From: Leptolyngbya sp. SIO1E4
GTDB taxonomy: Bacteria; Cyanobacteriota; Cyanobacteriia; Phormidesmidales; Phormidesmidaceae
Length of the DNA stretch: 64,000 bases
Assembly: GCA_010672825.2 (NCBI GenBank)
Contig: JAAHFU020000006.1
Coordinates: 187,549-251,548 of the forward strand
Direction: 5' to 3'
Position numbers and translations under genes: made by a program. Below, piece by piece: positions 42,174 through 64,000 of this stretch (the stretch's first letter is position 1; each line of letters opens with the position of its first letter). The notes below the pieces were generated by a model. It did no database searches. It was given only the letters and a program-made list of their open reading frames with translations, and was not told the origin of the DNA.

Positions 42174-42977
42174 CTATCTAGGTAACGGTACCAAAATCTG
42201 GTCAAGAACCAAGTTGTCTAGCTGGTTAGTGAGTTGTCCTGCTATTTGTGTATTTTTTATGAGAACCCCTAACTCCATATTGAGAGAAAGTGCATACTCC
42301 GTCAGATTAGCACTGGTTACAAACAGTTTTTCCTGATCGACGATCGCGCCTTTAACATGCAAAGAGCCGTACCTTCCTGCTCCATCAACGGGACGATTTT
42401 CCTTAGGCCAGACTAGAACTTCAGCACGCTTAAGAATTGGGGCATCGAAAGTAGACCGCAAACCAAAAGCAATTTTGCCCTCTCCGGAATCTGGCGTCTC
42501 TGCCAAAATACGAAGTTTGATGCCACGGTCTAAAGCGACAGCTAATGCTTGAACGATTTCTGGAATCTTGTAGATTGCGAAGCTGATTAGAGTTATTTCA
42601 TGTTGACACTCTCGGATTAGCTGCAACAGAACTTGGTCCGTTCTTCTAATGGCAAGGTTTGAGCAACTTGGCCCTGTCCAAACTAGATCGACAGCTAATT
42701 CTCGTTGAGCAGCTTGAGCAGTGTAAGCGGAACCAGTTAGAGCAGCAGCCAACTCGGAGCTTCCCCAGAATAAGGTATGGTCATCCCGCCAAGCACTCAG
42801 CAAATCCTGAAGAATCCGTCGAAACCGAGGATTGTTGACGGATTGGAGGAGTTGACTGGTTAAAGCCTCACTGCATGGAGCATGAGCCGATGCCAATTGC
42901 ACTGTGAGATCCTTTAGAACCTTAGATGGCAGCAAGCTGACGGTACGGTGAATTTCGGCAAGCAAGGAGAGAGACAC
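42174..42977 (-). CDS. drmC: DISARM protein DrmC (phospholipase D-like)
   Basis: 267 residues. A PLD/HKD motif is clear near residues 204-222: LHVKGAIVDQEKLFVTSANL, with His, Lys, Asp and Asn in the right spacing. An earlier weaker half lies around ECQHEITLISFAIYKIPEIV. DrmC is the PLD-domain core protein of DISARM, a restriction-modification-type anti-phage system. It starts 3 bp after the drmB stop and ends the operon. Confidence 0.85.
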   Translation of the reverse strand: MSLSLLAEIHRTVSLLPSKVLKDLTVQLASAHAPCSEALTSQLLQSVNNPRFRRILQDLLSAWRDDHTLFWGSSELAAALTGSAYTAQAAQRELAVDLVWTGPSCSNLAIRRTDQVLLQLIRECQHEITLISFAIYKIPEIVQALAVALDRGIKLRILAETPDSGEGKIAFGLRSTFDAPILKRAEVLVWPKENRPVDGAGRYGSLHVKGAIVDQEKLFVTSANLTEYALSLNMELGVLIKNTQIAGQLTNQLDNLVLDQILVPLPR

Positions 42978-42980
42978 GGC

Positions 42981-44846
42981 TTACTCCTGAAAAAAGGCCA
43001 GGTCTTTATCGGCAAACGTCGGCACTAATAAGGAACGGTCTAAATACTTGTTGCCTCTCTCACAAGAGGTTTCAGGACTAAAGAGACAGGCGTGGCAGGC
43101 TGCCCAGTGTAGAGAAGGAGTACCCTGATTCGGCTTGTGGTCGGCGCATAGAGGATCTGAGGCACACAGATGCATTCCGATCAGGGCCTGGGCAATGTGA
43201 TAGCCGAGAGTTTTCGGTTCTCCTAGGTTAACCAAGCCACCCAGTGTCCCCTCACTATCGGGAGCAGCAGTGTAGATTAATATGCCAGATTGAGGACCAT
43301 TTTCTTCTTCGGACCGTTTCGAGTAAATACGTTCTCTGAGGCTAGCGGCGTTATAGCCGCATTCAATAGCGAGCTGCCGCATGAGAGCATGGGCAAAGGA
43401 ATGCATCAGCAGGTAGCGCATTCCGGGAAAGGGAACCTTATTGGGGTCGAGGTTACGAGCGCGTAGCCATTGCTTTTGAGCCTCTCGGGTGCGCTGACCC
43501 CGTTGGTAGACCTGAACCTGATTTTCCCAGTTACGAAGCACGGATTCTTCAAACTGGAGAAAGATACCTTCACCTTTGACTTCAGTCGCGGGTGCCCAAA
43601 GAGGTGCATTGCGGCTAATCGGGGCACGGTACTCAGCTGGGATAGCCCCCGCATCATCAAAGTCACCAGGGGACTGAATTCGGGTGAACCCCACCAGAGC
43701 ACGAACCTCTCGCAGTCGCTCGACCAACACGACTTTATCGAAATAGGATTCGTAGCCAACTGGTGAAGCAACAGGACGTAACTGAAACTCGGTTGTGTTT
43801 TGAGTAGACACCGAGAGGGAGAAAACTTCCCATTCTGGAGTTTTCAAATCTCGAGCATCCGTCTCTTCCTGACCTTGCTGAATGAATTCGATTGTGGTCC
43901 AAATATCCTCAACAGGATATTTAGAAAACTCCTGGAGCTGCCCTGTAGCCTGCATCGCTGAAAGAAGGACTTGGAGAACGTCCTGACTAGTCGCTTTGCC
44001 CAAGGTGACCCAATTGTCCTGCACTAACTGGGTTAACTGATTGGAAGCGATGGGAATCGAGAGGGCAGATAAGGTAATGCCAAACCAGCTATTAGAGGCT
44101 CCCAGTAACATCCCCCGCATTTGTTGGGAGCATTCTTCGTCAAAATTGCGAATGTGAGGATGACGACCGCGACAGCGAGGCATGTTCTGTTTGCCCGATT
44201 CACCAAAGGCTTCGGAGAGCCGACGAGCTTTGGCATCACAGCCATCACAGCGCACCATGATATCGGTAGCGGCTCCCGTGACTCCGTATTCTTCAAATCG
44301 CAGTGACCCTTGGCAGTCAGAGGGACCCCGATGGACGAAGTAATGCCAAGGAAAATCGTCTAAATGTCCGTGCTCACAAGCGACTAGAAAACGCGAGGGA
44401 ATAACGGTAGGAGGCTTTTTAGCTTTAGCGCAATTCTTATGGATATACCGAGCTTCGTTAGGACGATAAGGGTTAATCTTCAGCTCAAATAGCCCCGATT
44501 GCAGGGGAGCCAACAGTCGGCACCGGGGACAGACCATCCAAGTGGGGAAAGGAGCAACGGGTATCCCAATACGAGCAGCTTCATCGAAAGGGTCAAAGGC
44601 TCCATCAGTGTCGGGCGGAATTGGAGGCGATCTCAAATCTTTAACCTGATTGCCCAGCTCATGGCGGACGGCGGCCAGCAGGCGTTCTTCATTTAGTTCA
44701 ATGGTGCGGGTCTTGTCCCAGCCTTCGAGGCCCATCACCATCGCGGAGAGATTGGGCAGATCGGCGATCGCACCAATGCCATAGGTAAATAAAATCTGGC
44801 TGGGGCGGAGTTCGCCCACACGATATTTGTAGGGGGATGCAGTCAT
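42981..44846 (-). CDS. drmB: DISARM protein DrmB (DUF1998)
   Basis: 621 residues starting MTASPYKYRVGELRPSQILF, with TYGIGAIADLPNLSAMVMGL, the standard opening of DrmB. Zinc-binding Cys clusters follow (WMVCPRCRLLAP, FLVACEHGHLDDFPW, VRCDGCDAK). The DUF1998 part has HSFAHALMRQLAIECGYNAA and GILIYTAAPDSEGTLGGLV, and a last CHACLFSPETSCERGN cluster. Its ATG overlaps the drmA stop by 4 nt. Known DrmA-DrmB pairs bind and load on phage DNA ends. Confidence 0.92.
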   Translation of the reverse strand: MTASPYKYRVGELRPSQILFTYGIGAIADLPNLSAMVMGLEGWDKTRTIELNEERLLAAVRHELGNQVKDLRSPPIPPDTDGAFDPFDEAARIGIPVAPFPTWMVCPRCRLLAPLQSGLFELKINPYRPNEARYIHKNCAKAKKPPTVIPSRFLVACEHGHLDDFPWHYFVHRGPSDCQGSLRFEEYGVTGAATDIMVRCDGCDAKARRLSEAFGESGKQNMPRCRGRHPHIRNFDEECSQQMRGMLLGASNSWFGITLSALSIPIASNQLTQLVQDNWVTLGKATSQDVLQVLLSAMQATGQLQEFSKYPVEDIWTTIEFIQQGQEETDARDLKTPEWEVFSLSVSTQNTTEFQLRPVASPVGYESYFDKVVLVERLREVRALVGFTRIQSPGDFDDAGAIPAEYRAPISRNAPLWAPATEVKGEGIFLQFEESVLRNWENQVQVYQRGQRTREAQKQWLRARNLDPNKVPFPGMRYLLMHSFAHALMRQLAIECGYNAASLRERIYSKRSEEENGPQSGILIYTAAPDSEGTLGGLVNLGEPKTLGYHIAQALIGMHLCASDPLCADHKPNQGTPSLHWAACHACLFSPETSCERGNKYLDRSLLVPTFADKDLAFFQE

Positions 44847-47800
44847 AGGTTTTCAATATAGGGCTGGGGGGAACGAAAATCGTCATCAGGAGCATGGTCA
44901 GTCAAGATAAGGTTGATGGTAGGTTCCACATTCCGCAGGGAATTCAAGCAGGTGGAAAGGTCCCATGGTCCTCGACCAGCGGGAACCAGCAGGTTAACTG
45001 TCGTGCCATCCTTGGACTTAACCTGATATTTAAGCTGGGCACCCCCAACGGTTTGAGCTTTAGCGAGCCAGTGATCCAGCTTGGCTTCTAGCTCACTGCG
45101 AATATTATGAGCCGTTTGAGCATCACTGACGAGACTAGCTCGATGCACGATCGCCTCGATCGCCTCGCGGACAAAAGCGTGGTTTCGCTCTACCTTGTCA
45201 GCTTTATCGTTAGCATTAAATTCTTCTCCTTTCAGGCGTACCAATGCCGCTAAGAGGGCAAATAAGCCGCGATAGGTAGCACCGGGAGCAAAGGGCGTAA
45301 CGGAGAGCGCTTCCACGTTCTTGTAGAAAGTCGCGTGGTAATGCTCAAAGCGCTCGTAGTGGGAAAGATCCCGAGGTCGCGCCCAATTGTAGACGGTAAC
45401 CACTAAACCAGGAAATGTTCGACCTACCCGAGAGGTAGCCTGAATGTACTCAGCCGTGTTCTTGGGCTGTCCACAGGCTACCATCACCCCTAACCGTCGG
45501 ACATCAACTCCGACAGAAATCATATTGGTGGCCAGAATGACATCCAGGGGATCGGGAAGGTCTACTTTTTCTCCCGCCTTCCGTTTGGATTGGTTTTCAG
45601 CCTCAATGTCTGGGTCAAAGGGGGTTTCCAGTCGGTCCAGAATAACTGGAATTTCAGTGGAGTCTTTGCGGGAAGTTAGCTCATCAATGGCTCTCAAATA
45701 TCGTTTTGAGAGGCCCCGTTCATCCATTCGGGCCAGTCGGGTACGGATATCATCATCTACTAGTCGTCGGGTGCCTCCTAATTCCCTAAGGGAGTTGAAG
45801 TAACCGACCAAGGTCATCCAGGGATCGGCATCTTTGCCGTAGAGTGCATAAAGACTCTGGGCTGAGGATAGTACGGCTAGATAGACCCGAATCATCGTGG
45901 CTTTCAGACGCCGCCCAGGGGCACAGACGCCGAGATAACGCCGCCCAGGGGTAGTCGTTGTATCGCGCTGGCGGGAGAAGAAATTATCTTGGATGTCCAA
46001 CCCCTGGGGTGGAAAGATACTGAGGTCACGCAGGAACAGGCTATTGACCTGGGTTTGAGCCTGTCGAATCGTGGCAGTGGAGGCAATCACCTTGGGGCGC
46101 ACGGGCTGGCCCTTTACCTCCCAGGTACAGAGCTGATCTACCGCCGTTTCGTAAAGCCCCACCAGGGTTCCTAAAGGGCCACTAATCAGGTGCAATTCGT
46201 CCTGAATAATCAGGTCGGGGGGTCTGAGTTTACGGTGGGGAAGGGTTTTAGCCGCTGGATGGATGCCTACCTTCTTGTGATTATCTTTATCCTCCAGATC
46301 GGGTGATCGGAATCCGTGGCGTTCGCAGTAGCCATTCACCTGCCCGAACAGCATTTGGACTTCCCCTTTCCAGGGCATTTGGGCGAACTTATCCACGGTG
46401 GCAATTAACAGCGTGGGGAGACGTCGGTAGATTTCTTCATCTACTACTACTACCGGCAGTCCCTCTCCTTTGGAGAAATCGCAGCGGCCCAGCATATCAC
46501 CACACTTAATAAAAGTCCGACCCCGTCCTTTCTCGTACCGCTCTACATGGATGTTACGACCAGGTTCAATTTTGGAGCCGCACCAGGGACAGTTGGTGAG
46601 TTGGTGGGGGGTGCCACTGCCCCGCATTCTCGATTCTCGATGCTGTTTGATGGCTTCTTCGCTATCTGCAGTTTTATTAGGGGTGTTGCGCATCCCCACC
46701 CACAGCCCAATGCGGAAGGGATCGCTGCCCCAGGTCGCTTCATCGGTTCGGCGAATGGTTTCACAGGCACAAATTAGAGCTGTGGCTCGCTGGAATTGCT
46801 GCAGGGTCAGCAGTCTGAGGGTATAGCGCATGAGTACGGCTACGCCATGCATTCCATCGCGGCCTTCCACAACTCCTTGGAGGCGACGCAACCCGATAGT
46901 GTAAGCGGTAAGGCCCAAGTAAGCCTCGGTCTTCCCCCCACCCGTAGGGAACCAGAGCAGGTCAGCGATCGCATCGGTAGGATGGGAGCGATCCGGGTGG
47001 TTGAGGTCAGTAGTGCTGGGCAGATTCAGCAGAATAAAGGCAAGTTGGAAGGGGTACCAACTCCGCCCCTTTGGGACATCGACTGTCTCTAGAGTGAGGG
47101 TTTCCCCTCGCCGTCGTCGTTCTGAATAGACGGAGTGAATCCGTTGCTGCCACATGGCCTGGTTCATGAACCGGAAGGCTTTAGCAGCTTGGGGATTATC
47201 TTTCAGAGTGGCTAGTCCCGCTTCAATGCGAGCTAAGACGCGGCGGCAGTTGGCAATCGCACCTTCCGCCACCTCTCGGTACTCAGCCAATCCCTCGTTC
47301 GGAGCACCAATCTTTGCTGCCTGCTCCTCAATCCAGAACTGATAGGCCATGGTTAAGGGCTGAAGCATGGCCTGTAGCTCAGTATCGGAAGCCTCGCAAA
47401 GCTGTTTCATGTCCAGTACTAATCCCTTGAGAGCAGGAATTTCCTCCTCTGTAGGGGGTTTGGTGGCGGGAACCTCGTAGTTGGGAATGACGCTGGTGGA
47501 CAGACAAATAGCCCGAGTGAGTGTGTCGGGGGCGAGTTCAGCATGAACTCCGACCCCATGACCGACTGCAAATTCAACCTGGTTGCGATACAGCATCGCC
47601 ATGGCCTGGTTCTCAGCATGAATGACCGGGTCTAAGGCAGCCGTATGTTGCTCCAGAGGCTTGCGAATAAAGATGTCAGGAGCATCGGGATTAGTAGAGC
47701 GAACCGATAGTTCGGGTTGAAACAACCAGGCAGTGTCTTTACTTTGATCGGGCTCATGCTGGCCATTGACCAGAAAGACGCTGACTATCCAATCGTTGTC

Positions 47801-48772
47801 AGGCAGCTGTCGGATTTGACCTCGCAGACAGACTGAGGGAGCCTGATTGGGCACAGGGAACTCATCAATTTCTTGGTTTGCCTCCAAGTCCAGGACGATG
47901 CTGCCTTTGAGAGGATACCGTTTCCAAATTTGTTTGGGATTCCCTTTGTCGGTGAAGCTAATCTCGCTAGCTTGGCGGATGTAGCAGCCCCATTCAGCCT
48001 GAATTTCCAGCGCTTGGGCTTGGGAGCTAACGCAGAAGGTCATGCCCATAGACGAGGGAAACATGCTGTCGGTCGTGGGTACATTCGTTTCGGCGTTTCC
48101 CTCTTCGGCGTTGTCTTTATCGGTTAGGGCAATGCTGTCTTGCAGTTCGGGTTGATCATCGATCGCCGGTTCCGCTTCGGTTTCAACATTGGGATTGCGC
48201 TTAATCGGGGCGAGTACCCCGACAAGGTAGCGATCAGTGACGTGGGCTTCGTTAACTTCCTCATCTTCACCATGAGCAGGCCCATGTAGCTCTTTGATAA
48301 TGGATTCTTCGAGTTGGTGGCGGATTTCTGCAGGCGTTGCTTTTTGGAAGACTTGATACTTTTCAGGCTTGGCATTGGCTTGAGGCGTTTCGTCAGCAGT
48401 TAAGTCGTAGCTAGAAACTTCATTGATGGGGTCTTCTGAGGCGGGCTCTGGAGTGGTCGGCACCCAGACTTCTGGCTGCGGGATGGACTTAGCGGTAGGC
48501 TTCGATTTTTTAGCTGGAGCGGTCTGCTGAGATTGATGTTGGGAAAAGGCCAGAAGTTGATCCACTAGGGTATCGGCAAGCGTGCCATCGATTCCTAACA
48601 CGTCAGCATCGTCAGAAATATCTAGGCCATTTAGCAGAGTGGCTAAGACCGATTCTGGCAAAGAGGCAACGGCACTCCAATCCAGTTGGGCGGTGCGATC
48701 GCGCAACTGTTGATTGATGACTTTGATGTCCAATTTGCCGGGAAGGACAGAGGGGAGCTTAATAACCTTCAT
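44843..48772 (-). CDS. drmA: DISARM helicase DrmA
   Basis: 1309 residues, a length usual for DrmA. Walker A: LLWFPTGGGKTEAYLGL (~605-621). A Cys-rich insert (CPWC ~728-731, C757, C764) may bind zinc. DExH box: LIIQDELHLISGPLG (~854-868). Motif VI region: IQATSRVGRTFPGLVVTVYN. It is a superfamily 2 helicase that with DrmB recognises incoming DNA. It overlaps drmB (ATGA at 44843-44846) and the upstream UvrD-type gene (ATGA at 48769-48772), so all three are co-translated. Confidence 0.92.
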   Translation of the reverse strand: MKVIKLPSVLPGKLDIKVINQQLRDRTAQLDWSAVASLPESVLATLLNGLDISDDADVLGIDGTLADTLVDQLLAFSQHQSQQTAPAKKSKPTAKSIPQPEVWVPTTPEPASEDPINEVSSYDLTADETPQANAKPEKYQVFQKATPAEIRHQLEESIIKELHGPAHGEDEEVNEAHVTDRYLVGVLAPIKRNPNVETEAEPAIDDQPELQDSIALTDKDNAEEGNAETNVPTTDSMFPSSMGMTFCVSSQAQALEIQAEWGCYIRQASEISFTDKGNPKQIWKRYPLKGSIVLDLEANQEIDEFPVPNQAPSVCLRGQIRQLPDNDWIVSVFLVNGQHEPDQSKDTAWLFQPELSVRSTNPDAPDIFIRKPLEQHTAALDPVIHAENQAMAMLYRNQVEFAVGHGVGVHAELAPDTLTRAICLSTSVIPNYEVPATKPPTEEEIPALKGLVLDMKQLCEASDTELQAMLQPLTMAYQFWIEEQAAKIGAPNEGLAEYREVAEGAIANCRRVLARIEAGLATLKDNPQAAKAFRFMNQAMWQQRIHSVYSERRRRGETLTLETVDVPKGRSWYPFQLAFILLNLPSTTDLNHPDRSHPTDAIADLLWFPTGGGKTEAYLGLTAYTIGLRRLQGVVEGRDGMHGVAVLMRYTLRLLTLQQFQRATALICACETIRRTDEATWGSDPFRIGLWVGMRNTPNKTADSEEAIKQHRESRMRGSGTPHQLTNCPWCGSKIEPGRNIHVERYEKGRGRTFIKCGDMLGRCDFSKGEGLPVVVVDEEIYRRLPTLLIATVDKFAQMPWKGEVQMLFGQVNGYCERHGFRSPDLEDKDNHKKVGIHPAAKTLPHRKLRPPDLIIQDELHLISGPLGTLVGLYETAVDQLCTWEVKGQPVRPKVIASTATIRQAQTQVNSLFLRDLSIFPPQGLDIQDNFFSRQRDTTTTPGRRYLGVCAPGRRLKATMIRVYLAVLSSAQSLYALYGKDADPWMTLVGYFNSLRELGGTRRLVDDDIRTRLARMDERGLSKRYLRAIDELTSRKDSTEIPVILDRLETPFDPDIEAENQSKRKAGEKVDLPDPLDVILATNMISVGVDVRRLGVMVACGQPKNTAEYIQATSRVGRTFPGLVVTVYNWARPRDLSHYERFEHYHATFYKNVEALSVTPFAPGATYRGLFALLAALVRLKGEEFNANDKADKVERNHAFVREAIEAIVHRASLVSDAQTAHNIRSELEAKLDHWLAKAQTVGGAQLKYQVKSKDGTTVNLLVPAGRGPWDLSTCLNSLRNVEPTINLILTDHAPDDDFRSPQPYIENL

Positions 48773-50871
48773 GCTGGTGTCTTGCCTAAGTTCCAGAGCG
48801 TCTTATCAAAGCCTTGTAAGAGGATAGAGGGTTTCTTTTCAGGCACAACAATCAGTAAAGCCCTCATAGCCCGAGTCATGCCTACAAAGAGGGTGCGGCG
48901 TTCACGGTTGAGGATTTCTTGAGCCGCTTCTTCAGAGGTACCTTTAGGCATATAGGGGAAGCGACTGCCAATGAAACCCGCGATCGCCACAATGGGAAAC
49001 TCCAATCCTTTGGCAGCTTTTAGCGTCAGGACTTTGACGCCCGTCTTACCTAAGTCCAGATCTTTGCTGCTCATATAGGTGGCTTCTAGTCCCAGATAGT
49101 TAAGCTGTCCGGCCAAGTCTTTGCCAGATCGTTCACTCGGCGTAAGGATAGCGCAGGCATCAATACCTAAGCGAAATTCCCGTGCAGCCATGCGGCAAAA
49201 CTGGGCTAAGAGTTGGCTTTCCGCTGCTTTGTCGGCAACCGCTCGAACCGCTGGTGGTGGACCAAAGTTAATGTATTGCCGCTCAATCGCTTCGTCATCT
49301 AGCAAGCTGATTTGAAGGTAGTCATGGGCTGCTTCATTAATTTCACGAGTCGTTCGATGGTTGACTCGGAGAATGCCAGTGCGGCCAACAAACTTGAGGT
49401 CAGAATGTACATTACCCCAGCGGAAGCTGCTGCCGTAGATCGACTGGTTAGCATCGGCGGTAATGAAAAGGCGATTGGGCGCTTTGCACAGTTGCACCAG
49501 GAAGCGCAGCGTGTTGGGCGGTAAGTCTTGAGCCTCGTCCACGATAACGGCATCGTAAACGGGCGGATTTTCCATCGACCTCAGCAACACTACTCCTCGA
49601 CTGCGGAGCTGTTCCCAAGTTTCGAGTCCCTGTTCCACCAGGTGTTGGTTGAGGTGTTCTCGCAGATGCCAGATGGCCTGACGCTGAATCCGGTTGAGTG
49701 GGACGATGCGCCCTGCTCGTGAAGTGGTCTGGTAGTCTTCTAGGCTTTGCAGTTCACGACTTTCGATAACAGTGCTGATTTCTTCGATTAGATACTCAGG
49801 CGTCAACCGTTCCAAGATGAGCCTTTGGGCCTGCTGCTGGAGACGATTACCGGGTAAGGACTGGAGGACATCATCCATCACCTTACTCAGGATTGTCTTA
49901 AGTTCGCGGTCATTAGCAATCTCGGGCTTACCAGTCTCGTGACAAATCAGCGAGTAGATGCGGCTATCAGCGGTCTTGACTTCTACATGGCGGATATCAT
50001 CGCCTAGAAGCTGCTCCAGCAGTTGCTCACTAAAGGTGACGAGGGCATTGGTATAGGTGGTAAAGAGGATTTTCGGAGACTCAACTCCCTTTACTTTAAG
50101 CCGATTCAGAATTTCGCGTGTGCGGTAGAGGGCAACGGTACTCTTGCCGGTACCAGGGCCACCCTTGAGCAGGGTTGGGCCTTTGGCATTGACAGCCCAG
50201 GTGACAAACTTTTCCTGTTCGGGATTGAGTTTGAGCAGGAAGCCGAGCAGGTCACCTTCTTTGAAACGCAGCAAGTCAGAAGTATCCTGAGCGATGAAAT
50301 CAGGCTGTTGGAGCACTTCGACCAGGGGACGCTCAAACAGGTATTCGTCGAGTTTGAGAATAATTTCGTCGGGGATACCGGGGCAGTCGAATAGAGCCTC
50401 GCGATCCCCAATTTGCAACAGACGAGGATGACACACCTCTGGAATCCGCAACCGCTTCAGTAGGTCTACCGTAATGGGTTCGGGCAACGGCGTTTTAGGG
50501 TCTTCTTTGGGAGCAAAAATCTTTTCCCAGTCCGGCTGTTGGAGCTGAGAAACTTCGGTTAGATCAGGATTGAGCCCTCCCAGAAATTCAGGGTCAATCT
50601 CTTCGTCGTAGGTGTCGTCATCGCGCTTGCGTAGCGCCAAGAGACTAACGTAGGGATATTCAAAGGTATAGAAAATGCGGTAGCGTCCGGCTCTCAAACG
50701 GTGGAGCTTACCGCCCATGTACTTGAGTTGCTTTTTGACTTTGGCATCGGGGGTGGGGTCTTGAAGCAAGAGATTGATTTTTTCTAAGACCTGATGACTT
50801 TCTTTAGGGGGCAAACCTAGCCATTCATTCAAGAATGAGGGCTTTTGAGTCGGTAGCCAGGTATTAGACAT
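48769..50871 (-). CDS. UvrD/PcrA-like helicase with RelE-like N-terminus
   Basis: 700 residues. Residues ~20-95 look like a RelE/ParE fold (VLEKINLLLQDPTPDAKVKK, then KLHRLRAGRYRIFYTFEY and VSLLALRKRDDDTY). The rest is an SF1A helicase: TLLKGGPGTGKSTVALYRTR (~234-253), AVIVDEAQDLPPNTLRF (~444-460), RLFITADANQSIYG, VLTLKAAKGLEFPIVAIAGF and RRTLFVGMTRAMRALLIVV. Its stop overlaps the drmA start, placing it in the DISARM core operon. Such an enzyme is not part of textbook DISARM; the RelE part could bind RNA or a ribosome, or simply serve as an interaction domain. Confidence 0.85.
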   Translation of the reverse strand: MSNTWLPTQKPSFLNEWLGLPPKESHQVLEKINLLLQDPTPDAKVKKQLKYMGGKLHRLRAGRYRIFYTFEYPYVSLLALRKRDDDTYDEEIDPEFLGGLNPDLTEVSQLQQPDWEKIFAPKEDPKTPLPEPITVDLLKRLRIPEVCHPRLLQIGDREALFDCPGIPDEIILKLDEYLFERPLVEVLQQPDFIAQDTSDLLRFKEGDLLGFLLKLNPEQEKFVTWAVNAKGPTLLKGGPGTGKSTVALYRTREILNRLKVKGVESPKILFTTYTNALVTFSEQLLEQLLGDDIRHVEVKTADSRIYSLICHETGKPEIANDRELKTILSKVMDDVLQSLPGNRLQQQAQRLILERLTPEYLIEEISTVIESRELQSLEDYQTTSRAGRIVPLNRIQRQAIWHLREHLNQHLVEQGLETWEQLRSRGVVLLRSMENPPVYDAVIVDEAQDLPPNTLRFLVQLCKAPNRLFITADANQSIYGSSFRWGNVHSDLKFVGRTGILRVNHRTTREINEAAHDYLQISLLDDEAIERQYINFGPPPAVRAVADKAAESQLLAQFCRMAAREFRLGIDACAILTPSERSGKDLAGQLNYLGLEATYMSSKDLDLGKTGVKVLTLKAAKGLEFPIVAIAGFIGSRFPYMPKGTSEEAAQEILNRERRTLFVGMTRAMRALLIVVPEKKPSILLQGFDKTLWNLGKTPA

Positions 50872-51011: not shown

Positions 51012-51779
51012 TCATGCTGTAGGCAAGGTGGCTTTGGTGAAATCTGAAGCAATTTCTTGGTAAATCGGGCTTGAGAAAGGCTCAAAGTCGTCTGTCCAAG
51101 TAGTGGTCAGGCTACAGAGCAGACGAAACTGTAGTGGCGTTGGTGGAGGATTAACTCGTTCCACGGTGACCTTGACTCGCTCAGGGAATTTGCACACGAG
51201 CTCGAAGAAGTCCTGGATCAAGTAGCGGGGACAGTAGCCTGCTTGATGATGATCTTCCGTTCTTAAGATGAGGGCGCGGGAGTCAACCGGGTTCTGGATG
51301 TCATGGACTAGCAAGAGCGGAGTACCAGGCTGCAAGGCTTGAACAACCTGTTGATCTTCTGAAGGAAAATGTCGGAGCCCGTGCGTAAAGAAGTGGATGT
51401 GATAATTGCCATCAGCATCGCGTTCAGGGCATGGAAAGACCTCAAAGTTGTCAGTTTTCCGTTTGCCGCCGCTACGAGCCAATAGAGCGATGGGGTCGTC
51501 TTCTTGCTCGGGAATGTTCAGCCACTGGACAAAGTCTTTGAATTCAGGCCTTGAGGAACGGAGTAGACGGTTGGCAAATAACGGGAACAGATCACGGGAA
51601 TGATAACCTTGGTCAAACTGAGGAAATGACACAATCGGTTCAAATCCCGCCTTGTCTCTGGCTTCTAGTGCGCCCTGCAAGTAGCTAAACTGATAGACCT
51701 CATGCTCCTGGGTCAGTTTGCCAATAGGGAACCAAGTGCGGGAGTGGGGATCTTGCCAAGCTAAAAATAGAGTTTTCAA
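51012..51779 (-). CDS. HIRAN-like protein, partner of HipA-like kinase
   Basis: 255 residues. The start MKTLFLAWQDPHSRTWFPIG then LTQEHEVYQFSYLQGALEA reads like the N-terminal part of HipA. The end has a HIRAN-like domain: LQPGTPLLLVHDIQNPVDSR, then HHQAGYCPRYLIQDFFELV. HIRAN domains bind single-stranded DNA ends. The start overlaps the stop of the kinase gene by 4 nt. The pair may be a split HipA-type module or a regulator of the DISARM island. Confidence 0.7.
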   Translation of the reverse strand: MKTLFLAWQDPHSRTWFPIGKLTQEHEVYQFSYLQGALEARDKAGFEPIVSFPQFDQGYHSRDLFPLFANRLLRSSRPEFKDFVQWLNIPEQEDDPIALLARSGGKRKTDNFEVFPCPERDADGNYHIHFFTHGLRHFPSEDQQVVQALQPGTPLLLVHDIQNPVDSRALILRTEDHHQAGYCPRYLIQDFFELVCKFPERVKVTVERVNPPPTPLQFRLLCSLTTTWTDDFEPFSSPIYQEIASDFTKATLPTA

Positions 51780-53261: not shown

Positions 53262-53301
53262 ATTGAATCAGGAGGACAACGCTGTCTGCAAAGGACTTTA
53301 G

Positions 53302-53517: not shown

Positions 53518-53548
53518 TTACAGTTTCTGATAAATGGGCTGCTTGAAT

Positions 53549-54505: not shown

Positions 54506-54639
54506 ATTATTTAGCAGCAATATAATTTTGCATAGGCTTTTGAATTTATCAGCATAAAATGATTAAAACTATGTTTCTAAACCTCCTTAATTTCCGAATG
54601 TAAGCTTCAAAGCATAAAAATCGATTGCCTTAGACAAAA

Positions 54640-56016: not shown

Positions 56017-56073
56017 GCTGTTGATCCTTTCCTCATAGTCGAAGTAGAGCCCTGATTTTAGAAATTGTCAACT

Positions 56074-59000
56074 CTATAAATCTGGAAACAAAGATCCCTG
56101 GATTATCTTCTCTTCAGCAACCACAGATTTCTTGGGTACCTGCGTTTTCTTCTTGCTTTTGCCTTTTTTCTTCTTCTTGTCGTGTAACCCTTGGGCGACT
56201 TCTTCGGCGTAGCGCTGGTGGTTGAGGGCGAGCAGGCGATCAAGGACTTCGCGGCGGGCGGCTTCGCTGATGGTGAAGCGGAGGCCCTGTTTGGTTTCGT
56301 GGAAGTCGTGGTTGAGGCCACCCTCACCCCCGGCCCCTCTCCCGGAGGTAGAGGGGAGCAAGTCGTGCCAGCCGTAGGCGGCGGCGACGGCGTTGTCCAT
56401 TTGCATGTGGAGGTCGCGGAGGGTTTGGATGTCGGGGTCGGTTTGGGTGGGGTCGTGGAAGCGGTTGTAGGTTTTGGTGAGCCCTTCCTGGCGGGTTTGC
56501 ATAATGGTTTGGCGGTGGGTGTAGTAGCGTTCGCCAATGGTTTCTAGGGTGTCTGTGTTTTCGGGGAAGGGAAAAGTTTCAAAGCCATCTGTTGGAGAAT
56601 ATCGAATTCCCGCATCCCGGATTGTTGAGCAATTCTGCCATGCCCAAGCATCATGTATTGATGATTGCAAAAGAGCTAAATCTGAAAACTTTTCTAAAGA
56701 AAAAACTACGAGGGCTTCACTGAAAACGATATCAGGCCCTACAAACTCAAAAAGCAACATTTTGTTGTGTCTTGAAGCAGCCAAAACTCTTTCACAGTCC
56801 GCTATTGCTTCATAAAGATCCATTGTTGGACGCTTAAATTGCCACCATCGCTTTGCTGTATCTCTATCCGTTGCATTTCCATCTATCTTTGCAATTCGCT
56901 CTGGCTTAACTCGTTCTTCGAGAACTGCTAAACAGTCAGAATAATCCCTTGCATAGGGCGCTCCTTTTGGCTTTTTAGGATTGTCGTTTTGGGCATCTAG
57001 AGGATAATCCTGAAAGTTGATTACCCAACGGCTTGGAGCTTGATCAAAATGCGAATTCAAGTCTTGACCATTCAAATAGGGGAAAAGAACATCGCGATTC
57101 TCTGCATCCTTTTTAATCAACTCTTGAGCTTCCCCTATTTCAAGTACGAAACCCATTCCATTAACTTCTGTTCCTTTGAAGGAGCTACCCTGACTGGCCC
57201 TCAATCTGTATGGCTTACCAATAGCTTTACCAGGAACAGTCAAAAAGGAAGTTATACCCTCAACGCTTTTCCCATCTAAGTGATACTCTCGCTGCCATTC
57301 ACCTTTTCTCAACCATACATAAGCAACTTCAACTGCTGCCATTCCAGGCCATTTACGACTAGATGCTGCACGAGGAATTACAAAACCGCTAGCAGTTAGT
57401 TTGTCTAATCCAATCTCTCGAGTATCACCCTGTGAGATCGTGTTTGTTGCAACAAGTCCAAAGTTTCCGCCTACTCGAACTAATTTTCCCGAATTCAAGA
57501 AAAAGTAGGAGCAGAGATCCGCACTACCTCTCCTGCCGTTAGCTACTTGCTCAACCAAAAAATCACGATAATCAGTACCAACAGCCCCAGTAATTTTGTT
57601 CCCCCCCTGGAACGGTGGATTTCCCACGATCGCCGAAAACCCCTGCGGTGCATCTTCCTCCAAAAACACCTCTGGGAACTCCAACGCCCAATGAAACGGC
57701 TCCCGCGTTGGCTGGCCTTCCGGCTTGCCCGCATTCAGCATCCGCTGGGCCTTTTCCCAAATCTGCCGCAGCTTGTTTTCCCGCTCCCGCCCATCCGATT
57801 CCTCCAGAGCATTCGTCACCAGTCCCGACAGCACCCCCAGGTCTTCCACCTTCAGGTTCCCGGTCTTTCCAGCCTGGGCCAGGGCTTCGCCAATCAGATA
57901 ATCTGCCGCAATTTTGATGTTGCGGGTCAGTTCTTCCGCTTCGGTTTGCAGGGCTTCCTTGCGGGCTAAATCTTGAATATCGTTGACCGTAAAGCTTTCC
58001 AGTTCCTTCCGTTTAGCAATGGCTCGATTCAACAATGGTCGCCAAATGTCAGACACCGTGCGGAGCTGCACCGCCTCGTTGTCAGGATTCAGGTGCAGAA
58101 ATTCGATTTGCTCTCGACTCGTCACCCCCAGCAGCGAATCGCCACAGCGCAGGGCATGGTCTAAAAACGTAAACGGTCGATTCTTTTGCAGGGTAATCAG
58201 CCACAGCGACAGCTTCGCCATCTCCACCGCCATCGGGTTCTTATCCACCCCATAGAGGCAGCGATCCGCGACAATGCGTCGAGCCACAGCAAGGCGTTCA
58301 TCCGCATCTTTCGGAATGGGGCATTCCTCCGGTTGTGAGGTCGATAGCGTTCCCTCCGGAGCCACCACCACCTGTCCCAGATGCAGCCGTTCCGCTTCCT
58401 CCCAAGCTTCCACCAGCCGCTCCGATAGAAAGCGACACACCTGCACCAAAAACGCGCCGCTGCCCATCGCCATGTCGCACACCTTCAGCGCCAGCAGCTC
58501 CGCTGCCGACTTCAGCCGCCACTCTTCCTTGGGTTTGCCTGCGGCCACGCCGTCATAAATCAGTGGCTCCAGGGTGTATTTGACGATTTCCTCCGTCAGG
58601 CTCTTGGGGGTGTAGTGGGTGCCCGTCTCCCGGCGATCCGTCCCCTGGGTAACAAACACACTGCCCGCCGGAATCACAATGGGCTGCCCAAAGGTATCGC
58701 ACCGCATCAAAGCCGCCCAGGGCAACACCCGTTTGAAGAGGTCAGGGTCGTTGTTGCAGGCAATGAGGAACTGATTGAGATCGTGGGGATCCAGATCTTT
58801 ACCGATCGCCGCCTCATCCAAATCAGCAGGGGGAATTCGCTTCTTCAAGGCCGATACCGACCGTCCCGTTTCCGACTTCAAAAAGGCCAGCAGGTCATCC
58901 TCACCCTTCGCGTGGAGCTGCTCCAATTCCTCCAGGGCCACCTCCGGCTCCTTATTCTTTGTGCCCTCCAAACCCAGAATCGTCGCCTCCGCCCGCACCG

Positions 59001-60306
59001 CCGTATGATCCAGCAGGCCCTCATACACATGGCCGATTTGCTCAATATCCAGCGCCCGGAACGAGAGCTTGCGGGGCTCCACCGTGCCGCCCACCTTGAT
59101 TTGCAAGAGCTGTAGCGCCTCTAGCAGGTGCAGCACCGTGCGGTTATTGATAGGGATGGGGGCTGCTGGGGTGTCGCGCCAGTGGGTACCGGGGGCGCGG
59201 CCCTCTAAAAACGGGAAGCGATCGGGGTCAAACAGTTGCCCGCCATAGGCCGGAAGCTGCAAGGCATCGTGATGGATGCCCCCATGCACCGCCCGAAACG
59301 TCGCCAGCAGCCGCACCCAGGCATCGTAGCGGCGTTCCAGCAGTTCTTCCCCCGCCTGGTCGGCCAGTTCTCGCAGTTGTGAACGCAGGGTCGAAACCGC
59401 ATAAAACTGGTCATAGAGCGGATCCCCCAGCAGCAGCAGTCCCCGCTCCTCCGCTGAAAACAAAAACACCAGCCGCATCATCACGGTCAGTGCCGCTTGA
59501 TACAGGTCAGTTTCCGCAAGTCCTTGCAGGAGGGTACGCTGGCGATCCTGGTCGATGCGATCGAGGGACTGCACCAGCACCTCCACCGCTTTCCGCACCT
59601 GGAAGCCGAGCTGGTCGGTGACCTCCTGCTGGGCATCCTTGCTGCGGGCCAGCAAATCCGCCAGGGTTTCCCCAGCATCCACCGCAAAGAACCGCCGCAC
59701 CCCTAGCAAACTGCGAAACGCCCGCAGGGTCAGCTTTTCTTCCAGCCACAAGTTGGCATACCAGGAAATAAACCCGGCAGACTCGCCTCGGGGAGCATTC
59801 ACCAGCATCCACTGCTCCCCATTAGTGAGCAGCCCCAGACGCACATCAGTAGCGTGCAGCAGCTCCATCATCCCCGTCGCCGGAGACGCCTTCCAGCGAG
59901 AATTGCGATAGGTTTTCTCTAAGCCCTGCTCCGGCGGCACCACCTGCACCAGCAGGTGCGGCTGGCGGCTCTCAGGATCGACCACTACCCAGTCGGGACG
60001 CAGAGTCAGCTGATGCTCGCTAAAGGTCACTTTCAACGCCGGGGATACCGCCTGACCGCTGAGCAACACCTCGTCGGGAAATTCCAGCTGATCCGTCAGC
60101 ACCCAGTTCACCCAGGCGCGATGAATAACCAGATCGCTGCGGTAGTCCAGCCATTCTTCATAGGCCGATCGCAGCGATCGAAACAGGTCGGCATCGTGGG
60201 CGTCTAGCCCAGTGGGAAAGACCTCCAGCAACACCTGCAGGCTGATAAACGGCCCAGAGGCTTCAACGAGGGATAACCATTCAGTGTGATGACGAGCGAT
60301 CGACAT
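56074..60306 (-). CDS. drmMI: DISARM class 1 adenine methyltransferase DrmMI
   Basis: 1410 residues. The N-terminal ~550 residues are an Eco57I/PglX-like helical region. Motif I of the N6-adenine methyltransferase is VCDMAMGSGAFLVQVCRFL (~608-626) and motif IV is AIVGNPPFQGGNK (~890-902). A target-recognition domain follows (WVINFQDYPLDA, ASRHNKMLLFEFVGPDIVFS). The end is Lys-rich and then KKSVVAEEKIIQGSLFPDL. It marks host DNA so that DISARM spares it. An in-frame stretch STSGRGAGGEGG derives from an interspersed repeat at 56318-56362. It starts 12 bp after the helicase gene. Confidence 0.88.
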   Translation of the reverse strand: MSIARHHTEWLSLVEASGPFISLQVLLEVFPTGLDAHDADLFRSLRSAYEEWLDYRSDLVIHRAWVNWVLTDQLEFPDEVLLSGQAVSPALKVTFSEHQLTLRPDWVVVDPESRQPHLLVQVVPPEQGLEKTYRNSRWKASPATGMMELLHATDVRLGLLTNGEQWMLVNAPRGESAGFISWYANLWLEEKLTLRAFRSLLGVRRFFAVDAGETLADLLARSKDAQQEVTDQLGFQVRKAVEVLVQSLDRIDQDRQRTLLQGLAETDLYQAALTVMMRLVFLFSAEERGLLLLGDPLYDQFYAVSTLRSQLRELADQAGEELLERRYDAWVRLLATFRAVHGGIHHDALQLPAYGGQLFDPDRFPFLEGRAPGTHWRDTPAAPIPINNRTVLHLLEALQLLQIKVGGTVEPRKLSFRALDIEQIGHVYEGLLDHTAVRAEATILGLEGTKNKEPEVALEELEQLHAKGEDDLLAFLKSETGRSVSALKKRIPPADLDEAAIGKDLDPHDLNQFLIACNNDPDLFKRVLPWAALMRCDTFGQPIVIPAGSVFVTQGTDRRETGTHYTPKSLTEEIVKYTLEPLIYDGVAAGKPKEEWRLKSAAELLALKVCDMAMGSGAFLVQVCRFLSERLVEAWEEAERLHLGQVVVAPEGTLSTSQPEECPIPKDADERLAVARRIVADRCLYGVDKNPMAVEMAKLSLWLITLQKNRPFTFLDHALRCGDSLLGVTSREQIEFLHLNPDNEAVQLRTVSDIWRPLLNRAIAKRKELESFTVNDIQDLARKEALQTEAEELTRNIKIAADYLIGEALAQAGKTGNLKVEDLGVLSGLVTNALEESDGRERENKLRQIWEKAQRMLNAGKPEGQPTREPFHWALEFPEVFLEEDAPQGFSAIVGNPPFQGGNKITGAVGTDYRDFLVEQVANGRRGSADLCSYFFLNSGKLVRVGGNFGLVATNTISQGDTREIGLDKLTASGFVIPRAASSRKWPGMAAVEVAYVWLRKGEWQREYHLDGKSVEGITSFLTVPGKAIGKPYRLRASQGSSFKGTEVNGMGFVLEIGEAQELIKKDAENRDVLFPYLNGQDLNSHFDQAPSRWVINFQDYPLDAQNDNPKKPKGAPYARDYSDCLAVLEERVKPERIAKIDGNATDRDTAKRWWQFKRPTMDLYEAIADCERVLAASRHNKMLLFEFVGPDIVFSEALVVFSLEKFSDLALLQSSIHDAWAWQNCSTIRDAGIRYSPTDGFETFPFPENTDTLETIGERYYTHRQTIMQTRQEGLTKTYNRFHDPTQTDPDIQTLRDLHMQMDNAVAAAYGWHDLLPSTSGRGAGGEGGLNHDFHETKQGLRFTISEAARREVLDRLLALNHQRYAEEVAQGLHDKKKKKGKSKKKTQVPKKSVVAEEKIIQGSLFPDL
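56318..56362. repeat. GC-rich palindromic interspersed repeat inside drmMI
   Basis: The plus strand reads CCACCCTCACCCCCGGCCCC then TCTCCCGGAGGTAGAGGGGA. This CCCTCACCCCC/GAGAGGGG type of palindrome is a known dispersed repeat in cyanobacterial genomes. Here it lies in frame within the coding sequence and adds about 15 Gly/Arg/Ser-rich residues. Confidence 0.6.
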
Positions 60307-60318
60307 AGGTTTAGGCCG

Positions 60319-63048
60319 TTAAACTAAATGACTCAGGGGCATCATCCAGTCACACTCTTGGCTAGAGCAGACCAATATCATTTGATCTTTTCCGGGGGCT
60401 CTCCGCCCTTGGAGCTTCGAGCCACACTTGCCACAGAGCCGTTTTGTTAGCTCGGCCAAGATGGTCGCATCATCCGGTTTGATTCTGCGGCGATCGTGAT
60501 CTGGATGTCGGGGATATTTCAAACAAGCCACCAAATGTGCATTGCCAATTGAGGTAATCCACAGGGGTTGTTTGCAATTGCACTGTCCGAATGGATTTGG
60601 ATCTGGCGGCAGCGTCTTGCGGTGAGGAATTAGCCTTAAAAAGCCGTAGAGCAAGTTAACGGTCTTCTTGAGTTCTAGCTTCAACACTCCTGCCTCTTGG
60701 TTAGTCGGATCTGGAAAGATCCACAGGCATTGCTCGCTGACACCGACAAATCCAGAGGTTGTAGTCAGTTCGTTATTCCAAACCTGAGTATTCTCAAGGG
60801 CGAGACCCGCTTCAGCTCCCTGCGAGCCAGCAATGTAAAACCCGACACCCTGTTGATTAATTATTTTGAGAATGTTCGGATCGAAGTGGTCGCTAAACAT
60901 CGAGCAGGGCCAATAAATGGCGACATGATCTTGAGCAGCTAGCAAGCTTGCTTCCAAAGCTTCTCTAGCCGCTGCGGCATTGGCAAAGCAGGTAACTCCC
61001 GGCAAATTAACCGATTCGGTGAAAGCTGCCCAGTCGAGGGGGTAAATTGATTCATCCTTTTGGGCGCTGTTGTACAAATACTCTATGAATTTCCGGAATG
61101 CTTGAAATTGGGCAGACGTGAGCCGACGGCGAATGTATCTCACATTCATGACTCCGATAAACTTGCCCTGGGCTCGGCTAATGGCCACGTTAGCCAATCG
61201 CATTGCACCACTGTATTCACCCCCTTGCAAGGGCAACCCAATCGTGGCGTTGGGGTCGCTATCAACCGCATCAAAAATGATGACACTGCGCTCAGACCCT
61301 TGAAATCTATGAACGGTAGACGCCTTAACCTGTTCGTCTTTTTCCAGGTCGCGCAGCATTCGATGAATCAACCGCGACTGGGCATTGTACGGAGCAATCA
61401 CTCCTACCTGCACTCGCAGATTATCCACTGTCGCTTGATAAGCAACATTTACCGCAATGAGAGCCGAGAAGATATTGAAACGACTGTGAGACTCCGTTTC
61501 TTTGATGCAGTGAGCCCTCAACCGCGAGATGTCTTGCAGTACTAAAGCATCTCCAGAGAAAGGCGTTTGCTGAACCGTTGGCTGGTTATCGATTTCGATA
61601 TTAGGGCCATTCAACAACCGCCCGTCATAACACAGCCGATTCGGAATATCCGCGATCACTGGATACATCCTGTATTGGGTTTGCAGCATCACCATTCGCG
61701 GATCGTCTTCTTGGCGATTCACTCGGGTCATGACGCCTGACTGATCAAAGATGTCGCGCTTAAGCCATTTGTCTGCAGCTGGGGTATCAGCCTTGGCGAT
61801 AGAGCCTAGTTGGCGAAAGTCTCCGTAAATCGCAATCCTCCGTTTGGCTAGCAGGGCCGCAAACACACACTGGGGAATAGACACCATGCTGGCTTCATCG
61901 ACAATCACCGTGTCGTATTTATTAGGCAGTATTTCTTCAGCGATCGCCGCTTTGGAAAGCGTACACCCGACCACCTCAGCTCTCATCACGAGCTGCCGCT
62001 CTTTAGCTTTCCGGCTTTCTTCAAGAGGTTTAAGCTGCTCCTCAACAAATTTGATTTGTTTCGTAATAGCTGTAATCTGTTCCTTGATTTGCTTCTTATG
62101 GTATTCGGGCGTGTTTTTAGTAATGAGCTTTTTCTGATGACGAAGCCGTTTGTAGTGATCTCGTTTTTGCTGCTTTAATGAATTGATTTCTTCAATAAAC
62201 TCCGGTTCAACGCGTTCGAGAACCTTCTTGGCCCGCAGCATAGGATAATCGTCCAGCATTTTGGGGATCGGGACACCATGCCGCAAAATGAATCCTTCGT
62301 TATAAGAGGGAGACTTAGATAAATATTTGGCGACACTGAGCATAGCCGAATCTACCGCCATATTGCTATGAGACAGAACAAGGACAGATTCCCCTGCCAT
62401 CGTCAAAGCAGCAACTGTCATGCCCAGAGTTGTGGTCTTACCTGTACCGGGTGGTCCCCAAATAAAGCTCACTTTATGGGACAAAACTTGTTCGACGGCG
62501 GCTTCTTGAGATGAGTTACGCAAAATCTGAATGTCAAACCGTCTTTCCAAATCAGGCAATAACTCAGAAGCACTACCAGTCACGTCTTGTTCAGGCAGTG
62601 AGTTGGGAGTAACTAAAAGCTCGGCCAAGTCTTGATTAACGGATACATCTGCTTCAAAGACCGTTTTAAAGTGTGCTTGTAAAGCCTCTAACAAAAATAT
62701 TGGGGAGGTGTTTAATGTCGCAGCAGGAACTTTTTCACCTATTTTCTCCTTCAGAGCCAAAGTGACATCAAAGCTCTCAACTGAAACCAGGGTTCCCTTG
62801 ATAACTTCCTGCCTACTTTTAACTTCCAACTCGATTGGAGTTTCATCTTGAAAGCGGATTTCACTATCGGCTGTAAATGCATACAGATAATGTCCATTGC
62901 TCCGCCTACTCAAATACTGACCATCTGTCAAATAAGTCCTCTGTCCTCCAGACTTGCGGAGTACAGTTATTTCATCATCTAGGGCTACCTGAAACTTTTT
63001 CAGATAGCTTTTTAAGTTCTCAGAAGATGAGTGATTGACGGAAGACAT
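60319..63048 (-). CDS. SF1 (Upf1/DNA2-like) helicase with zinc ribbon
   Basis: 909 residues from MSSVNHSSSENLKSYLKK; longer frames upstream run into drmD and are shadows. Walker A FIWGPPGTGKTTTLG (~196-210), Walker B DTVIVDEASMVSIPQ (~378-392), then QTQYRMYPVIADIP, GVIAPYNAQSRLIH, STVHRFQGSERSVIIFD and RLANVAISRAQGK: all motifs of the AAA_11/AAA_12 helicases. The following part (DHVAIYWPCSMFSDHFDP) resembles a PLD-like fold without a clear HKD, and the C-terminus is a topoisomerase-type zinc ribbon (LCGKCGSKLQG, MILVCSSQECDWMM). It lies between drmD and drmMI, an unusual position. Confidence 0.85.
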   Translation of the reverse strand: MSSVNHSSSENLKSYLKKFQVALDDEITVLRKSGGQRTYLTDGQYLSRRSNGHYLYAFTADSEIRFQDETPIELEVKSRQEVIKGTLVSVESFDVTLALKEKIGEKVPAATLNTSPIFLLEALQAHFKTVFEADVSVNQDLAELLVTPNSLPEQDVTGSASELLPDLERRFDIQILRNSSQEAAVEQVLSHKVSFIWGPPGTGKTTTLGMTVAALTMAGESVLVLSHSNMAVDSAMLSVAKYLSKSPSYNEGFILRHGVPIPKMLDDYPMLRAKKVLERVEPEFIEEINSLKQQKRDHYKRLRHQKKLITKNTPEYHKKQIKEQITAITKQIKFVEEQLKPLEESRKAKERQLVMRAEVVGCTLSKAAIAEEILPNKYDTVIVDEASMVSIPQCVFAALLAKRRIAIYGDFRQLGSIAKADTPAADKWLKRDIFDQSGVMTRVNRQEDDPRMVMLQTQYRMYPVIADIPNRLCYDGRLLNGPNIEIDNQPTVQQTPFSGDALVLQDISRLRAHCIKETESHSRFNIFSALIAVNVAYQATVDNLRVQVGVIAPYNAQSRLIHRMLRDLEKDEQVKASTVHRFQGSERSVIIFDAVDSDPNATIGLPLQGGEYSGAMRLANVAISRAQGKFIGVMNVRYIRRRLTSAQFQAFRKFIEYLYNSAQKDESIYPLDWAAFTESVNLPGVTCFANAAAAREALEASLLAAQDHVAIYWPCSMFSDHFDPNILKIINQQGVGFYIAGSQGAEAGLALENTQVWNNELTTTSGFVGVSEQCLWIFPDPTNQEAGVLKLELKKTVNLLYGFLRLIPHRKTLPPDPNPFGQCNCKQPLWITSIGNAHLVACLKYPRHPDHDRRRIKPDDATILAELTKRLCGKCGSKLQGRRAPGKDQMILVCSSQECDWMMPLSHLV

Positions 63049-63112
63049 TTGACATAACTGAATGATGGTTTTGAGTCGGCTGAAGGGAACAGTGGGATAA
63101 TTTTTCTCTTCT

Positions 63113-64000
63113 TCAAGTAATAAACTTCTTTGGCACCAGGTAGGTGATAGATAATGGAAACAAGCGAGCCTTCGGATTGGCAAATCGCGCCCGAATGGCG
63201 GCGGTTTCCTGTTCAATTTCGTAAGGAATCTGGTCTAAACGGGCTTTCAGGCTGGAACGGTTGCGATCGTACTGATCTCGCTCGGTATCGCTAAAAATGC
63301 TGAGCTGCTGGGGCTGTTCTGATTCCGTCAACTCCGCCAAAATACTCTGCCGCAGCTCATTCATAATCGCGGTGATATCGGCCACCTCCTTCTGGCAGCG
63401 CTCCTGCAATGCCTTTTCGAGCGAAGTCGTTCGCTCCGCCTGCCGCACCTCTAGGCTTTGCATCAAAGAGCCTGCATAGGTATCCCAGATATCAACTAAC
63501 TGCTGCTGGATGCGATCGGGCACTGGGTCAGGCAGCACCGCATCCATGGCCTGCCGCATCGCCAACAAACTCTTAAATCGGCTAAAGCGCCCCTCGCGCA
63601 AAACTCCACCCGCTGTAATCACCTCCTCATGGAGGCGCTGCTGGTCACCGCCCAGCACCACCAACCGTCCATAGGCCACCACCGCCGGAGTCTCCAATGC
63701 CAAGTTTTCCACGACCCGTGCCGTCACCCGATACAGAGATTTGCTCACCCCACTGGCCCAGACCTCCGCCCGCAGCAGCCGCAAACACATCTGCACCAGC
63801 CGATGATTCAGGTGAACCAGCACCACATCATCTCGTCCTCGCGCCAGATCTGGGTCAAATACCAGAGGCCGAATTTCACCTGTATGGGGATGAGCCAGCC
63901 CTTCACCACAGGCAGCCCAACTCCCTTTCATCGGGGGTAAATGGTAAACGCCCGGCTGATTCACTATGGGTTGCAAGGGAGGTTGCTGAGCCACATCTAA
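63113..64000 (-). CDS. drmD: DISARM SNF2-type helicase DrmD, C-terminal part
   Basis: Only the last ~296 residues are inside the window; the frame is open at the right edge. The region matches the end of DrmD: IRPLVFDPDLARGRDDVVLV, HLNHRLVQMCLRLLRAEVW, VVLGGDQQRLHEEVITAGG, a coiled coil, then LRQSILAELTESEQPQQLSI and the end PLSITYLVPKKF. The helicase motifs would lie beyond 64000. DrmD defines class 1 DISARM. The next gene starts 64 bp downstream. Confidence 0.7.
   Translation of the reverse strand, partial: LDVAQQPPLQPIVNQPGVYHLPPMKGSWAACGEGLAHPHTGEIRPLVFDPDLARGRDDVVLVHLNHRLVQMCLRLLRAEVWASGVSKSLYRVTARVVENLALETPAVVAYGRLVVLGGDQQRLHEEVITAGGVLREGRFSRFKSLLAMRQAMDAVLPDPVPDRIQQQLVDIWDTYAGSLMQSLEVRQAERTTSLEKALQERCQKEVADITAIMNELRQSILAELTESEQPQQLSIFSDTERDQYDRNRSSLKARLDQIPYEIEQETAAIRARFANPKARLFPLSITYLVPKKFIT

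Follow-up and report, generated by a model that had tools for sequence, protein, structure and literature searches.

The 64,000-nucleotide (nt) stretch of Leptolyngbya sp. SIO1E4 DNA analyzed here (the window; G000:C6:187549-251548 of an 8.2-Mb genome, with coordinates below given as window positions unless a locus is named) carries on its minus strand what is, by its sequence, a complete class 1 DISARM operon with all five core genes intact. Seven further genes lie within this operon. We consider it likely that the locus is a class 1 DISARM with an occupied cargo slot, in which a RelE-UvrD fusion protein, inherited with DrmA in one lineage, would act as an added subunit, a HipA-HIRAN pair would serve as a back-up module, and the other extra genes are broken or specific to this locus. 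The core genes and the RelE-UvrD gene are:

63113..64000, minus strand: drmD (SNF2-type helicase), 3′ part; PADLOC DrmD, 1446 bits; Pfam SNF2 and Helicase_C
56074..60306, minus strand: drmMI (type IIG-like adenine methyltransferase); PADLOC DrmMI, 1829 bits; Pfam Eco57I and MmeI_TRD
48769..50871, minus strand: RelE-UvrD fusion, related to ArmD; Pfam UvrD-helicase, UvrD_C and a weak Gp49/RelE match; overlaps drmA by 4 nt
44843..48772, minus strand: drmA (YprA-family helicase), carrying about 85 additional residues as an N-terminal domain; NCBIfam DrmA; PADLOC
42981..44846, minus strand: drmB (DUF1998/MZB protein); NCBIfam DrmB, 728 bits against a cut-off of 240; PADLOC
42174..42977, minus strand: drmC (phospholipase D-like nuclease); NCBIfam DrmC_I, 213 bits against a cut-off of 133; PADLOC, 331 bits

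All five genes named in the PADLOC definition of class 1 DISARM (PMC9252829), drmA, drmB, drmC, drmD and drmMI, were thus found. The drmD gene extends beyond the window, from 63113 to about 66298 (L002:5662-8847), and DrmA scores 1428 bits against an NCBIfam cut-off of 950, the match spanning residues 150–1290. Among the PADLOC families listed (the best 25 per protein), no operon protein matched DrmE. Read 5′ to 3′ on the minus strand, the genes are drmD, superfamily 1 (SF1) helicase, drmMI, CoiA-like, PD-(D/E)XK, RNase III-like, HipA-like, HIRAN, RelE-UvrD, drmA, drmB and drmC, and the class 1 order drmD-drmMI-drmA-drmB-drmC is kept. A first-pass annotation of this DNA had described the canonical order on a single strand, an SF1 helicase gene between drmD and drmMI, and several 4-nt overlaps; all of this is borne out, the overlaps falling at three junctions (RelE-UvrD/drmA, drmA/drmB and HipA/HIRAN). 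Its count of eight extra genes (six genes and a fragment between drmMI and drmA, plus the SF1 helicase gene) comes down to seven, since the fragment is the tail of a broken PD-(D/E)XK gene and not a gene of its own. Other junctions have gaps of 12 nt (SF1-drmMI), 57 nt (drmMI-CoiA), 119 nt (CoiA-PD-(D/E)XK), 287 nt (PD-(D/E)XK-RNase III), 58 nt (RNase III-HipA) and 140 nt (HIRAN-RelE-UvrD), and the inserted DNA amounts to 2.8 kb at the drmD-drmMI junction and 7.3 kb at the drmMI-drmA junction. Promoter and terminator scans gave scores no higher than those of shuffled sequences.

So much inserted DNA might have disrupted the system and left a decaying, nonfunctional operon. The broken PD-(D/E)XK gene, the changed catalytic residues of the RNase III-like protein, the insertions private to this locus and the remnants of a decayed relative in genome G334 would all fit such an explanation. 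However, the five core genes are open and give full-length family matches, and non-synonymous differences between the window locus and loci L073, L075 and L077 are far below synonymous ones. We therefore regard decay as highly improbable.

The RelE-UvrD gene and its link to DrmA

Loci with drmA were collected from 386 genomes of the phylum, 32 of which had a match, and from a species-level genome collection (the best 80 of more than 578 matches), and the island proteins were mapped onto all loci from both sources. Because the loci are related to one another and were picked by similarity to the window DrmA, the counts of gaps and contents describe this sample rather than all DISARM; slots longer than the fetched flank are undercounted.

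A RelE-UvrD gene lies upstream of drmA in 14 loci, namely the window and 13 others (G185, G005, L074-L077, L079-L082, L084, L090 and L097), which span Cyanobacteriota, Chloroflexota and one delta-proteobacterium. In every one of them except L090, no other gene separates it from drmA. Within the 386 genomes, all full-length RelE-UvrD proteins of at least 50% identity are encoded either in drmA-linked loci or in G153, where the gene sits at a contig edge that may face a drmA contig edge. On the tree, the copies from DISARM loci group as a single clade (SH-aLRT 100; one change), their divergence tracks that of DrmA (Mantel r 0.90, with 0 of 2000 permutations as high), and sequence differences are strongly synonymous. 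Distant relatives (36–40% identity) directly precede YprA-type helicases in the ARMADA-like loci L153, L154 and L173. We read RelE-UvrD as an extension of DISARM because it is next to drmA, monophyletic, co-diverging with DrmA and related to ArmD; on these sequence comparisons, it looks like a lineage-specific DISARM subunit inherited with DrmA. Neither our literature search nor the available passages of PMC12458937 yielded an earlier description of an ArmD-like subunit in DISARM.

The basic residues K46, K47, R58, R60, R65 and R83 of the RelE part are invariant in eight sequences, and the eight-sequence profile matches the archaeal RelE structure 1wmi at 1e-5; searching PDB sequences with only the window protein's RelE part gave no match. 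An AlphaFold model of RelE-UvrD, of moderate quality (pLDDT 68), confirms the UvrD fold only. Searches of viral contigs returned only three weak matches, all to the helicase part.

The N-terminal extension of DrmA is present in 13 of the 13 RelE-UvrD-bearing DrmA proteins of the tree versus 7 of 80 others. A phylogenetically paired test of this association found about 3.5 of 4 pairs in agreement, too few independent pairs for significance. The extension is modeled with a beta-alpha-beta-alpha start, and a fold search with the domain produced no significant match, the best hits (E above 1) including stressosome STAS proteins. This model-based likeness to STAS is a hint only. One could go further and propose a distinct DISARM subtype that structurally bridges DISARM and ARMADA and in which RelE-UvrD is obligatory: docked on the extra domain at the DrmA N-terminus, which may be STAS-like, it would supplement DNA targeting with RNA cleavage or with a second motor. 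We offer this proposal tentatively, as possible rather than probable.

Several points weigh against a RelE-UvrD subunit of DISARM. The closest relatives by DrmA, G085 and L073, lack the gene although their operons otherwise look intact, so that not every DISARM of this clade depends on it. Distant relatives also occur in a BREX locus and in two protein-kinase loci, which means that the family is not exclusive to YprA systems. The homology to ArmD is read from shared architecture and from cyanobacterial intermediates at 36–40% identity. Finally, the set of loci was chosen by likeness to the window DrmA and is not phylogenetically independent.

Some RelE-UvrD contexts are worth recording in their own right. 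On a plasmid of Deinococcus sp. NW-56, the gene (L174:14974-16995) lies between brxC and the methyltransferase gene of the BREX locus, which also holds DarT-like and HNH genes. In L157:10559-14970 and L158:9576-13870, the pairing is a different one: the gene right after the RelE-UvrD relative encodes a protein kinase with a fused phosphonate-binding-type domain. In the decayed DISARM of G334 (L156:2827-10243), what is left is drmD, a drmMI of reduced length and an internal stretch of RelE-UvrD; no drmA match lies in the vicinity.

The drmMI–drmA junction and its occupants

Across the class 1 loci, the median gap between drmMI and drmA is 2248 nt (n = 70), and it reaches at least 1 kb in 49 of the 70, whereas the median is −4 nt at drmD-drmMI (n = 54), drmA-drmB (n = 99) and drmB-drmC (n = 63). 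With one long-gap junction against three at −4 nt, the operon is open at one specific place. In the sampled sequences, drmMI-drmA is thus a recurrent, position-specific insertion slot in class 1 DISARM. Its occupants in other loci include AspBHI-type and GmrSD restriction enzymes, PDC-S39, an ApeA-type HEPN protein (PDC-S58), KAP NTPases, a reverse transcriptase, a HicB-like protein, and a DarG-like macrodomain beside sacsin-like and DarT-like proteins. The embedding of defense genes in other systems is a general phenomenon that has already been described (PMC12988326; PMC12629846); for the single-slot pattern of class 1 DISARM, we found no earlier description. The window resembles BREX loci with cargo in that extra defense genes sit inside a multi-gene, methylation-based system, the Deinococcus NW-56 BREX even holding RelE-UvrD, but here the host system is DISARM and the slot is drmMI-drmA.

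A slot of this kind raises the alternative that the seven extra genes, RelE-UvrD among them, are without exception independent defense modules that sit in a tolerated site and leave the DISARM mechanism untouched. It would account for the unrelated modules found at the same position in other genomes, is in line with the general occurrence of embedding, and fits both the absence of RelE-UvrD from L073 and G085 and its relatives in BREX and other contexts. What it explains poorly is that RelE-UvrD holds the place before drmA in all loci but one, overlaps drmA by 4 nt here, and is monophyletic and co-diverges with DrmA, whereas most other slot occupants are scattered. We judge this alternative unlikely and retain the reading of RelE-UvrD as an added DISARM subunit.

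One pair of slot genes elsewhere is conserved in 11 loci (L120, L121, L126, L128, L135, L138, L140, L142, L148, L149 and L152) of proteobacteria, planctomycetes and myxobacteria. It consists of a GHKL ATPase (HATPase_c_3, about 470 amino acids) and a Methyltransf_35 protein (331 amino acids), as exemplified by L121:7143-9554. The L121 pair has no PADLOC match and is possibly an unlisted DISARM-linked module.

The remaining extra genes of the window are:

60319..63048, minus strand: UPF1/IGHMBP2-type SF1 helicase with a Cys-rich C-terminus; Pfam AAA_11/AAA_12
54640..56016, minus strand: CoiA-like protein, CoiA_N region only; A+T-rich, GC 0.39
53549..54520, minus strand: PD-(D/E)XK nuclease (PDDEXK_4, PDC-S26), ended by a stop; 323 amino acids; PADLOC, 440 bits, positions 3–318 of 400
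53323..53550, minus strand: C-terminal remnant of the PD-(D/E)XK gene, out of frame with it and interrupted by another stop; tblastn with the Leptolyngbya homolog, 44% identity over 77 residues, E 4e-17
52746..53261, minus strand: RNase III-like protein without a double-stranded RNA-binding domain; Pfam Ribonuclease_3
51776..52687, minus strand: HipA-like kinase, PDC-M03A; PADLOC, 377 bits; NGDRHHEN and YDH motifs
51012..51779, minus strand: HIRAN-domain protein, PDC-M03B; PADLOC, 324 bits; Pfam HIRAN; overlaps the HipA-like gene by 4 nt

By their family matches, HipA-HIRAN (PDC-M03) and PD-(D/E)XK (PDC-S26) correspond to catalogued candidates and form modules nested within the cargo slot; PDCs were found by guilt-by-embedding and are mostly unvalidated (PMC12988326). 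As expected for PDC-M03, both genes are present, paired and overlapping. The difference is that they lie in a DISARM here and in L073 but mostly alone elsewhere. In all 13 of the other cyanobacterial loci examined the two genes are paired, with no drmA or drmMI matches nearby. The pair in the DISARM slot of L073 is 76/72% identical to that of the window, close to the 71% identity of DrmA, which suggests that HipA-HIRAN was probably present in the common ancestor of the two operons. No HipB antitoxin gene lies beside the HipA-like kinase, the neighbors being the RNase III-like and HIRAN genes.

The PD-(D/E)XK gene keeps the N-terminal 80% of its family but is frameshifted and truncated, with 323 amino acids instead of about 400 and the tail out of frame. 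A 432-residue homolog on Leptolyngbya boryana pLBX matches the window over residues 29–351 in one frame, up to and across the stop, and over residues 343–419 in a second frame that itself holds a further stop (64% and then 44% identity). A match split over two frames with stops indicates a broken, frameshifted PDC-S26 gene, which, as it reads, no longer works. A PDC-S26-like remnant is also found between drmA and drmB in L082.

The CoiA-like protein has no detectable full-length relatives, giving no match in the 386 cyanobacterial genomes, plasmids or viral contigs. In the RNase III-like protein, the EFLGD of solved RNase III reads AFMGD, with the catalytic E changed to A and probably also D to E. 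The SF1 helicase scores 163 bits with TIGR00376 (IGHMBP2), below the cut-off, and 191 bits with PADLOC MkoA. Mokosh consists of MkoA with a kinase part and MkoB, or of MkoC with an active PLD domain; in PADLOC, the match of the SF1 helicase to MkoA/MkoC is confined to their helicase part, and Pfam shows no kinase or PLD domain. Gabija pairs GajA with a GajB-like helicase, and PADLOC scans of the operon proteins gave no match to GajA. Cyanobacterial relatives of the SF1 helicase align from residue 56 (the better one) and 71, and because of the former the start is more likely ATG 63048 than TTG 63216. Its relatives were found only on two cyanobacterial plasmids (Nostoc, Aulosira) and one Cytobacillus plasmid, with no annotated drm genes around those of Nostoc and Aulosira.

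No other locus examined had the CoiA-like, RNase III-like or SF1 helicase gene beside drm genes, and on this distribution the three are locus-specific arrivals that probably share transcription of the operon. It could still be argued that all extra genes, these three and HipA-HIRAN included, are effectors of one integrated system, as a single strand, short gaps and some overlaps would suggest. But the three do not recur with drm genes, HipA-HIRAN occurs mostly alone and PD-(D/E)XK is broken, so that this explanation, already weakened by the distribution, is improbable. The first-pass annotation had left the choice between nested defense modules and an extended DISARM with new effectors. On our reading, nesting applies to HipA-HIRAN and PD-(D/E)XK, while RelE-UvrD behaves like an extension. 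The search it suggested, for the same neighbors in other genomes, recovered RelE-UvrD in 13 further loci and HipA-HIRAN in L073 but not the CoiA-like, RNase III-like and SF1 genes. It had named, as evidence against its proposal, extra genes never found with drm genes elsewhere and a loss without effect on DISARM activity; for these three, the first half is what we observed in the loci examined.

Further candidates for conflict systems lie outside the operon. A GmrSD-type type IV restriction enzyme is encoded at 6723-8468, and a 1605-residue NB-ARC/nSTAND-type NTPase, which has a long array of TPRs and could be another defense sensor, at 28581-33398. Upstream of drmD, beyond the window, a cluster of trypsin-VMAP, MoxR-type ATPase and TIR/FGE-sulfatase proteins (L002:10480-18464) looks like another conflict system. 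ParA and ParB genes at 26485-28455 suggest that the 344-kb contig C6 may be a plasmid.

Relation to ARMADA and a possible mechanism

Relative to class 1 DISARM, the window has the same five core genes in canonical order, all passing the family models, and differs by the seven added genes and the extra DrmA N-terminal domain. With ARMADA type II it shares an SNF2 helicase, a PglX-like methyltransferase, a YprA helicase and RelE-UvrD, and these genes are arranged alike in the ARMADA-like cyanobacterial locus L154: SNF2, methyltransferase, two further genes, RelE-UvrD and YprA. However, the window has drmA and drmB as separate genes, plus drmC, and its DrmA is a member of the DISARM family. The YprA helicase of ARMADA type II is an OB-CON-DUF1998 fusion with a C-terminal Vsr-type nuclease, whereas the window DrmA has neither MZB nor such a nuclease; the YprA-type helicase of L153 likewise has MZB and a C-terminal nuclease domain, unlike DrmA here. 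According to Bell et al. 2025 (PMC12458937), ArmD is an essential subunit of ARMADA type II whose loss abolishes defense.

In DISARM, DrmAB binds DNA with 5′ overhangs, its ATPase activity is lowered by methylated DNA, and DrmC is dispensable (PMC9142583). By extension, DrmMI of the window would methylate host DNA, while DrmA-DrmB would be loaded onto phage DNA that lacks methylation and has 5′ overhangs, and would translocate along it, as is known for Serratia DISARM. RelE-UvrD could then be an additional motor on the single strands opened by DrmAB, by analogy with ArmD, which is needed beside the YprA helicase ArmC, with the RelE domain of RelE-UvrD perhaps cleaving RNA close to the site. 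The HipA-like kinase and HIRAN would form an independent back-up module. The HIRAN domain of HLTF binds 3′ DNA ends. With less support, HIRAN in the window would probably sense DNA ends and switch the HipA-like kinase, which would act on a host target.

Two implications follow. For class 1 DISARM, we suggest as a rule that drmMI-drmA is the junction that takes cargo, so that genes found there, such as the GHKL ATPase and methyltransferase pair, can be mined as defense candidates. In addition, RelE-UvrD would link DISARM with ARMADA as a component common to both, without which ARMADA defense is abolished (PMC12458937). With such a component in hand, what does the killing in DISARM, given that DrmC is dispensable, becomes a directly testable question.

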